From assembly GCF_015240255.1 (NCBI RefSeq), contig NZ_CP061205.1, positions 868,001-932,000 on the forward strand: a stretch of DNA of 64,000 nt, given 5' to 3'. Shown piece by piece: positions 2,168-55,703 of this stretch; positions within the stretch are counted from its first letter, which is position 1, and every line of letters starts with the position of its first letter. Position numbers and translations under genes: made by a program. Origin of the DNA: Kordiimonas pumila. Lineage in GTDB: Bacteria; Pseudomonadota; Alphaproteobacteria; Sphingomonadales; Kordiimonadaceae. Below the pieces are notes generated by a model that saw nothing but the letters and a program-made list of their open reading frames with translations, was not told the DNA's origin and made no database searches.

Positions 2168-2476
2168 TTAATGGCGCGACAGGCGCAGCGGTACAACAGG
2201 CAGGTCTTCTGCGGGTGATGTAGCGGCCTTTTCAATTTCAAAAATGTACGTTTTTTCTTCAATACGTGCCATGCGCAGTGTGTGACCTGTGATTTTGCAG
2301 AAGGCAGGCATGTCTTGTACAGATGCTGGGTCAGAAGCTTTTACAACGAGCATTTCGCCCGGTTTCATACCGTCCAGAATTCGGCGGGTGCGAAGTACAG
2401 GAATGGGGCATAGCAAACCTGTTACATCTAGTGTCGCTATTGTAGGCTCAGGTGTTGCTTCAGGTGCTGCGGTCAT
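2168..2476 (-). CDS. TusA-like sulfur carrier protein
   Basis: A 102-residue protein of the TusA/SirA/YedF fold. The signature CPIPVLRTRR follows a LDVTGLLC segment near residues 20-28; that first Cys is the sulfur-accepting residue of the family. The rest follows the usual beta-alpha-beta-alpha pattern with the LVVKASDP strand. TusA proteins relay persulfide sulfur to tRNA thiolation, molybdenum cofactor synthesis or dissimilatory sulfur pathways. About 18 residues before the core are Ala/Pro/Glu-rich and probably disordered. The gene converges on the TIGR02186 gene with 5 bases between stops. ATG at 2476 is preferred over GTG at 2479. Which relay it serves is not determined. Confidence 0.85.
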   Translation of the reverse strand: MTAAPEATPEPTIATLDVTGLLCPIPVLRTRRILDGMKPGEMLVVKASDPASVQDMPAFCKITGHTLRMARIEEKTYIFEIEKAATSPAEDLPVVPLRLSRH

Positions 2477-2599
2477 CACACTAATACCTTATACCGTGGT
2501 GGCATCATTTTCACGTAGGGTTTTATAGTAACCAGTTTTCAAGTCTAGACCTAAAACATCAATGTTGGGTTAACAAAAATACTAATTATCACCAACAGC

Positions 2600-2709
2600 A
2601 AAAAGAAACGACCCGCCCTGGGTGGGGGCGGGTCGGGTTTCCGGGAATGGGTATTTCCCGGAAATTTGGACGGAACATGGGTGCCGGGTGCTGAGTGATT
2701 CCGTCCAAA
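2600..2709 (-). ncRNA. Triple-hairpin RNA array ending in an intrinsic terminator
   Basis: Three perfect inverted repeats follow one another directly. Read on the minus strand they are: an 11-bp stem TTTGGACGGAA (2709-2699 with 2675-2665), a 10-bp stem TTTCCGGGAA (2664-2655 with 2647-2638) and a 10-bp GC-rich stem CGACCCGCCC (2635-2626 with 2618-2609). Nine bases TTTCTTTTT follow (2608-2600), so the last stem is a Rho-independent terminator for minus-strand transcripts. Stems one and two abut, and two bases separate two and three. The loops read ATACCCA and CCACCCA, and the 23-base first loop contains CACCC and CACCCA, so ACCCA recurs in all three. It begins 6 bases past the stop of the 74-residue gene, so it is either its structured 3' UTR or an sRNA released from it. 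Confidence 0.75.
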
Positions 2710-2986: not shown

Positions 2987-3002
2987 AGCAACAGGTGTGC
3001 CA
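2987..3002 (-). promoter_or_regulatory. Sigma-54 (RpoN) type -24/-12 promoter
   Basis: The minus strand reads TGGCAC-ACCTG-TTGCT, a full match to the sigma-54 consensus TGGCAC-N5-TTGC(A/T) with correct spacing. Transcription would start near 2975, giving a leader of about 35 bases before the ATG at 2940 with GGAGC in place. Sigma-54 promoters need an ATP-using enhancer-binding protein; none is encoded in this window. Confidence 0.65.
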
Positions 3003-3124
3003 GTTTTACGGAGCGTGTGTTTTTGCTGTGTTTTTAATTGGTTGATGAAACTTGCGCCTGCACAAAGGCATAGAGGCGGCGAAAGATGCCGGGGTAAGTC
3101 TTGCCCTCTAGGTAACGCTTGCCG

Positions 3125-19645: not shown

Positions 19646-19741
19646 CGGGAGTGCCGGCGGACATTCCGCTCGCCAACCCGGTCAGGTCCGAAAGGAAGCA
19701 GCCGTAACGAGTTGTGCATGGGTCGTTTTGGCCCTCCCACC
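19646..19741 (+). ncRNA. ffs: Signal recognition particle 4.5S RNA
   Basis: The conserved apical block GGTCAGGTCCGAAAGGAAGCA and the following GCCGTAACG (19680-19709) are the Ffh-binding hallmark of bacterial small SRP RNA, with its GGAA-type tetraloop region. Outer arms GGGAG near 19648 and CTCCC near 19734 pair to close a single long hairpin of about 96 bases. The ends are estimated from pairing. The RNA binds Ffh to target membrane proteins. It stands directly before dnaX, an order common in Alphaproteobacteria. Confidence 0.93.
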
Positions 19742-19874
19742 CTTTACCTTGTGTCAGGTAATTTCTTTCCCGGTATTCAGTATGTGAAAAAATCACCCTT
19801 GGGGTGGTAAAGGCCTTTTCCCGCCCGGCTGTTCCTGCTAGTCATGATGGGGCGCTGTAAGGAGATAAAAGCAC

Positions 19875-26034: not shown

Positions 26035-26876
26035 TCTCTCAGCAGTTCGTTGATGGAAGTTTTAGAGCGGGTGCGTTCATCAACACGTTTTACAATAACG
26101 GCGCAGTAAAGGCTTGGGCCAGGTGTGCCGTCAGGCAGTGGTTTGCCGGGTAGGTTGCCTGATACCACAACGCTGTAGGCTGGTACCCTGCCCACAAAAA
26201 CTTCACCAGTGGCGCGGTCAATAATTTTGGTAGAAGCGCCGAGATAAACCCCCATTGAAAGCACGGAGCCTTCTTCGACAACAACGCCTTCTGCTACTTC
26301 GGCACGGGCGCCGATAAAGCAGTTATCTTCAATAATAACCGGGCCGGCCTGAAGGGGTTCGAGTACGCCGCCGATACCAACACCGCCTGAAAGGTGTACG
26401 TTTGCACCAATCTGGGCACAGCTGCCCACTGTTGTCCATGTGTCCACCATTGTGCCTTCGCCGACATAAGCGCCTAAGTTTACAAAAGAGGGCATCAGGA
26501 CAGCGCCTTTTGCAATGTGGGCTGATTTCCTAACAATAGAGCCGGGTACGGCACGGAAACCGGCGGTCGCAAAATCGCTTGCGCTCCAGCCGGTAAATTT
26601 GCTTGGCACTTTGTCCCACCAGCTTGTGTTTTCGCCCGGTCCGCCCGCGATCATTTCCATGTCGTTTAATCTGAACGAGAGCAGAACAGCCATTTTAAGC
26701 CACTGATGTACAGTCCAGTTGCCATTTTCCTTACTGGCGACGCGCAGTTTACCGCTGTCGAGCAGGTTAAGGGCTTCATTAACCGCTTCACGTATTTCAC
26801 CTGTTGTTGCCGCACTAATGGTATCGCGGTTTTCAAAGGCTTTGGTGATAATGGTTTCTAGGTCTGTATAACTCAT
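26031..26876 (-). CDS. dapD: Tetrahydrodipicolinate N-succinyltransferase
   Basis: A 281-residue left-handed beta-helix acyltransferase, the step before the aminotransferase and DapE. The N-terminal helical domain (about 1-100) is followed by hexapeptide turns from [28 protein letters not shown] repeats, with [23 protein letters not shown] as the substrate-binding stretch. The pair dapD-dapE is a normal operon. About 237 bases lie upstream before modC; I see no gene in them. Confidence 0.97.
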
Positions 26877-55627: not shown

Positions 55628-55703
55628 AGCCTCTCTTCACTTTCTACCATATTGAAAACATGGAATGAGTTAAGCAAAGAGTGGGCCAATTTAGGAGTGC
55701 GTA

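Follow-up and report, generated by a model that had tools for sequence, protein, structure and literature searches.

The window, the whole stretch of DNA analysed here, comprises 64 kb of the 4.04-Mb genome of Kordiimonas pumila (assembly GCF_015240255.1, NZ_CP061205.1, positions 868001–932000). On its minus strand are, in this order, bioF and bioD (both named from their appearance and from synteny with bioB), a gene for a 74-amino-acid protein (P0001; 2716..2940), three hairpins (2709–2609), a U tract and tusA (2168..2479, identified by a Pfam match), which is the next gene and lies outside the unit described below. The hairpins form a structured 3′-UTR RNA of ~105–110 nt (2600..2709), recognized by its folding z-score, its occurrence as one copy per genome in the family and the double changes in its stems. 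Three stems with ACCCA in the loops and a trailing U tract had been proposed here in the initial annotation, and all are present, with ACCCA in each of the three loops. The RNA is assigned to the minus strand because the 74-aa gene stands in front of the hairpins and the U tract behind them.

Hairpin 1 (2665..2709) has a 12-pair stem (11 Watson–Crick pairs and one G–U) closed by a 21-nt loop, CACTCAGCACCCGGCACCCAT, that contains CUCAGCACCC and a second CACCC. Abutting it with no intervening nucleotide is hairpin 2 (2638..2664), a 10-pair stem with the loop AUACCCA (ATACCCA in the DNA). Separated from this by 2 nt is hairpin 3 (2609..2635), again of 10 pairs, with the loop CCACCCA; it serves as the stem of a terminator-like element, and the U tract TTTCTTTTTG (2599..2608) follows directly.

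For the minus strand (146 nt) the folding energy is −60.3 kcal/mol (z = −6.7), with none of 200 shuffles as stable, and the plus strand (181 nt) also folds (z = −5.0), as expected of palindromes. A trio of near-abutting hairpins, each with at least 8 bp, is found at one place in the window and once in total over eight dinucleotide shuffles. This geometry is thus expected by chance at ~0.1 per 64 kb and is by itself suggestive only; we therefore relied on relatives, whose conservation of the array is decisive for the reality of the RNA. When 464 kb of the genome (the window and 20 further stretches, ~11% of the genome) were scanned for at least three hairpins with CCC loops, the RNA locus was the single place found. 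A control scan of the same 464 kb for GGG loops gave two places, the complement of the RNA itself and window positions 26049–26162. The region at 26048–26162 holds further hairpins, whose loops carry GGG on the plus strand or ACCC on the minus strand.

Relatives were searched with a covariance model built from 10 of 26 loci, picked for having their hairpins nearly in register. One copy of the RNA per genome was detected in 28 of 29 genomes of the family (Kordiimonas, Eilatimonas and Pseudokordiimonas, K. pumila included) at E ≤ 0.1, 27 of them at E ≤ 0.001. Outside the family the RNA was not convincingly found: in the 30 further genomes of the order the one match was in G044 (E = 0.051), and among 385 genomes of the class (K. 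pumila included; strict filters, 10 candidates scored per genome) the matches were K. pumila itself and G272 (E = 0.0096). We take the G044 and G272 matches as chance.

When the 28 copies are aligned, both partners have changed in 27 of 29 base pairs and 96.1% of cells are paired, values reached by none of 500 shuffles. The covariation score of 0.602 compares with 0.215 for shuffles, and slid versions do not exceed 0.148. As this alignment was fitted to the covariance model and is favoured by it, we give alongside it the 10-sequence alignment that preceded the model, in which 14 of 29 pairs show double changes (0 of 500 shuffles); four of its five measures exceed all shuffles, and the fifth, the number of further pair types, does not (26 versus 26.9). 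The initial annotation had named such a search as its own check, and the compensatory changes and loop conservation found in relatives leave its RNA standing.

Loop conservation was counted in 26 of 30 fetched loci, those with a readable hairpin region (L016 and L022 were read by eye; the rows for L017, L027 and L029, with no motif, and for L028, which reaches a contig end and whose RNA is L044, were omitted beforehand). The 5′ arm of hairpin 1 takes 23 different forms among these loci. ACCC, by comparison, is present in loop 1 of 25 loci, in loop 2 of 25 (absent in L016) and in loop 3, the least conserved, of 20, and the loop motifs CUCAGCACCC, AUACCCA and ACCC are mostly retained across relatives, with variable spacing (for example, CACCCGGCACCC, CACCCACACCC and CATCCAACACCC). 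Several relatives (for example, L002, L003 and L007) have a weaker U-rich tail. A design of this kind says that the stems are scaffolds and the loops the working part.

The RNA keeps close company with the 74-aa gene. Of 25 named loci, 21 have the core of loop 1 at 16–44 nt past the stop codon, and the other four (L222, L224, L225 and L226), without the core, are assigned to other families; in G008, gene and RNA are split across two contigs. The distance from the 74-aa gene to tusA ranges from 223 to 2,119 nt in 17 measured loci (of 20 named loci with a TusA match) and the RNA remains with the 74-aa gene throughout, so that it belongs to this gene and not to tusA. A 5′ leader element of tusA, either attenuator or riboswitch, would be suggested by tusA being next on the strand and by its lying 0.2–0.4 kb from the 74-aa gene in 12 of the 17 loci; in the other five it is 1.1–2.1 kb off with the RNA still beside the 74-aa gene, and we regard this reading as scarcely credible.

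Position and stem strength would also suit a compound terminator and 3′-end protector of the 74-aa gene mRNA with no trans role, as the array begins directly past the stop codon, its stems are strong and a U tract follows in the window. A protector, however, needs its stems, and it is the stems that are replaced here and the loops that are conserved. Further against it, no ACCC-loop hairpin array was seen by eye in the tail of the gene in 15 genomes of other families (single ACCC words occur; the inspection also took in the family genomes G022 and G025). We consider this alternative improbable. Either the RNA was added later to an older gene or it has been lost in the other families.

Located 46 nt upstream of the start codon of the 74-aa gene is a sigma-54 promoter, TGGCACACCTGTTGCT (2987..3002, minus strand), with the sequence (TGGCAC-N5-TTGCW), fixed spacing, upstream position and conservation of an RpoN promoter. 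It is the one perfect match to TGGCACN5TTGCW on either strand of the whole window; across the genome there are 12 such matches, of which one precedes a flagellin gene and several fall within reading frames, against 2 for the reversed control pattern. Counted without the duplicates L074–L076, the promoter is perfect in 23 of 29 family loci and has one mismatch in five and two in one, ~33–89 nt before the start codon; in the other families it has at most one mismatch in 10 of 15 loci. This promoter, absent from the initial annotation, shifts the likely biology away from stress, the setting of the cuckoo RNAs, and towards flagella.

Above the promoter, also on the minus strand, are an activator-like box, CGGCAAGCGTTACC (3111..3124), similar to a box upstream of flagellin promoters, and a second box, CCCGGCA (3087..3093). 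Boxes such as CGGCAAGCTTTGCC and CCCGGCAGCTTT precede the promoter of the 74-aa gene, and many flagellin promoters have CGGCAGAAGTTGCA-like boxes near −130. The pattern GGCA[AG]N2-3TTNC, chosen after both promoter sets had been seen, occurs within 160 bp upstream in 23 of 30 loci of the 74-aa gene (28 family, 2 other), 10 of 16 flagellin loci and 0 of 16 porin sigma-54 promoters (background 4.5%). Seven of the 30 74-aa gene promoters are without it, five of them in RNA-bearing genomes (L008, L015, L016, L018 and L028). CCCGGCA alone precedes 22 of 31 promoters of the 74-aa gene (one row being a duplicate) and 5 of 17 flagellin promoters (background 3.7%), and was found at none of 16 porin promoters. 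No sigma-54 promoter was found in 13 of 30 flagellin loci.

Being like those of flagellin promoters and unlike the porin sigma-54 promoters, the boxes point to the flagellar activator FlbD, which is likely to activate the 74-aa gene promoter. FlbD itself was not located; one GAFTGA-type activator is encoded in L137, and none was found in L121–L124. FlbD is described as working on flagellar genes via ftr sites (PMC3930126). Elsewhere in the window, on the minus strand at 55673–55688, is a sigma-54-like site, TGGCCCACTCTTTGCT, without flagellar-type boxes, 45 nt upstream of a gene that by eye resembles a helix-turn-helix regulator.

Of 59 genomes of the order that were searched (K. pumila included), 44 have a match to the 74-aa protein, which indicates that the gene is real. 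No Pfam or NCBIfam model matches it above cut-off; a Pfam scan extended to E = 1 brought up nothing beyond DUF6961 (E = 0.03) and NagJ_C (E = 0.15), neither of which passes the cut-off. Its predicted fold is a three-helix bundle (mean pLDDT of 86.4) with no match in the PDB at E ≤ 0.001. In Caulobacter, FliX is described as the partner of FlbD, a sigma-54 activator (PMC3096577). Of the 59 genomes, 47 encode FliX; 41 have both the gene and FliX, 3 the gene only, 6 FliX only and 9 neither. Outside the family the association has p = 0.02, the profile counts being uncorrected for descent. The sole family genome without an RNA match, G022 (L017, L074), has CTGC for TTGC in the promoter and no upstream box; it keeps flagellins and FliX, so flagella as such do not require the RNA.

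The locus, on balance, probably encodes a sigma-54/FlbD-driven, 3′-UTR-derived, trans-acting multivalent regulatory RNA whose loops pair with mRNAs. What the sequence itself shows is the structure with its covariation, the conserved loops, the tie to the 74-aa gene, the terminator-like end in the window and the sigma-54 consensus. Beyond this, we infer that the sigma-54 promoter, most likely activated by FlbD, would produce a single RNA that spans the 74-aa gene with its 3′ UTR and ends at hairpin 3; from it the stable trio of hairpins is probably cut free. Its rigid, freely changing stems would display about four copies of ACCC in the loops, allowing multivalent action in trans, and the loops would most likely pair with a few mRNAs at sites containing GGGU. 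Such pairing would couple the flagellar stage to post-transcriptional control.

Target searches, which were partial, gave no support to the UGGGU-type target sites put forward in the initial annotation. At 403 start sites of the K. pumila genome within the 464 kb, TGGGT and GGGTG are not enriched (19 versus 26.9 and 21 versus 25.2 expected from 20 rounds of 25-base block shuffles); some longer words are slightly over expectation (TGGGTGC, 4 versus 1.3; GGTGCTG, 4 versus 1.7) at counts too few to weigh. Among 48 ortholog groups near the flagellar cluster (up to seven genomes each) no site was present in at least 60% of members, nor was any control word, which leaves this comparison little power, and TGGGT is not conserved in flagellin leaders. 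For GGGTGCTGAG, the complement of the loop-1 core, there are seven exact sites in the genome, one being the complement of the RNA itself and the other six having no clear start-site position; those in L147 and L146 lie at 59 and 134 nt inside called reading frames of uncertain start. GGTGCTGAG has 40 and 65 sites in two genomes. Duplex ranking over the 464 kb yielded no target. A candidate from this ranking, L134 12630–13842, was set aside, having no close ortholog and only partial matches of 24–37% identity in 18 genomes of the genus.

The same results bear on whether the ACCC loops might instead bind and titrate an RNA-binding protein, with no mRNA pairing. CsrB and CrcZ titrate proteins in this manner through other motifs. 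About four short copies of one motif, held in loops and conserved yet tolerant of changes in spacing, would fit such a decoy, as would the lack of conserved complementary sites in these partial searches; the long conserved core of loop 1, CUCAGCACCC, however, exceeds the needs of a short protein motif, and we know of no protein that would be a fitting partner. We regard a protein decoy as possible but rather unlikely and give mRNA pairing more weight than titration.

The 464 kb contain ACCC hairpin pairs at several other places, and one of these lies inside a second multi-hairpin 3′-UTR array (L127 13680–13880, equivalent to G000:C1:1873680–1873880, minus strand). This array follows a putative porin gene of the TorF family (TIGR02001) that has a perfect sigma-54 promoter, and its loops carry UUCCC and CUCCCC as well as CACCCA. 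Among 16 porin loci with an exact TGGC[AC][CT]N5TTGC[AT] promoter, the 300-nt tails of eight (L228, L230, L231, L236, L238, L239, L240 and L242) contain CUUCCC/CUCCCC-type words at a level that no more than 8 of 500 shuffles of two-base blocks attain; five others are weaker and three (L233, L241 and L247) have none. None of 14 porin loci lacking the promoter has more than one such word.

The CUCCCC/CUUCCC loops look anti-Shine–Dalgarno-like, and by its loops the porin array looks nearer to cuckoo and ar14 RNAs than the ACCC-loop RNA does. We propose, tentatively and with some doubt, that the Kordiimonadaceae have a class of sigma-54-driven 3′-UTR hairpin arrays with C-rich loops, one flagellar (FlbD, ACCC) and one porin-linked (under another sigma-54 signal), each programme releasing a multi-seed RNA with a loop code specific to it. 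If so, loop code and enhancer protein would be matched for each sigma-54 programme.

In its architecture of a small-protein gene, repeated C-rich loops and a terminator-like last hairpin, the RNA of the 74-aa gene is similar to the cuckoo and ar14 RNAs, and the likeness noted initially, with another loop motif and another protein, is borne out. The loops of cuckoo RNAs carry CCUCCUCCC. No Rfam family reaches its cut-off at the RNA locus, and a scan of the whole window at gathering level gave only the signal recognition particle RNA. The latter is a small one, at window positions 19646–19742 on the plus strand. That the RNA is a diverged ar14/cuckoo member with an altered loop motif is very unlikely in our judgement. 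It has three hairpins, divergent stems and one repeated, conserved C-rich loop motif, as do ar14 RNAs, and the ar14 model (RF02344) aligns over its full length on the minus strand (25.6 bits, E = 0.0029). This score is, however, far below the curated cut-off of 58.8 bits, and RNAI (26.3) and 6C (25.8) score similarly on the same stretch; moreover, none of the loops contains CCUCCUCCC, and the gene in front does not encode the DUF1127 protein of cuckoo/CIN1 loci.

As described in two reports, the ar14/NfeR1 RNAs of Rhizobiales (SmelA075; RF02344) have the same motif in each of three loops on highly divergent stems, the motif being the anti-Shine–Dalgarno CCUCCUCCC (PMC10746234, PMC3927594), and NfeR1 is transcribed from a sigma-70 promoter of its own, which carries LsrB and NtrC sites (PMC10746234). 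The Kordiimonas RNA differs in its ACCC motifs, sigma-54 promoter and 3′-UTR position. The CcsR1–4 (cuckoo) RNAs of Rhodobacter are described as sharing one transcript with the small-protein gene CcaF1 and ending in a terminator, at a locus that combines an RpoHI/RpoHII promoter with a DUF1127 RNA-binding protein and four RNAs (PMC10253847); the Kordiimonas locus has another protein, sigma-54 and one RNA.

FlmE (CJnc230) of Campylobacter jejuni is described as an sRNA cut from the 3′ end of the RpoN-dependent flgE mRNA, with flgM and Cj1387c as demonstrated targets (PMC11187230). It is likened to the Kordiimonas RNA by description only, as an RpoN-linked 3′-end sRNA, and differs in belonging to another bacterial class and to a hook gene. 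The sigma-28-dependent UTR sRNAs of E. coli (PMC10578931) and the glnA 3′ UTR sRNA (PMC9731577), likewise compared by description only, are also UTR-derived and linked to an alternative sigma factor. An open-access literature search for Kordiimonas small RNAs gave one paper, on coral bacteria to judge by its title, and in the open-access searches we noticed no alphaproteobacterial flagellum-linked sRNA tied to FlbD. If control by FlbD is correct, the RNA would be a flagellum-linked sRNA of Alphaproteobacteria, and the covariation model and loop motifs permit direct tests. Here the multi-hairpin, repeated-loop design is combined with another loop motif, another partner gene and, judging from the promoter, another sigma factor, and the ar14/cuckoo type of design may be a general platform.
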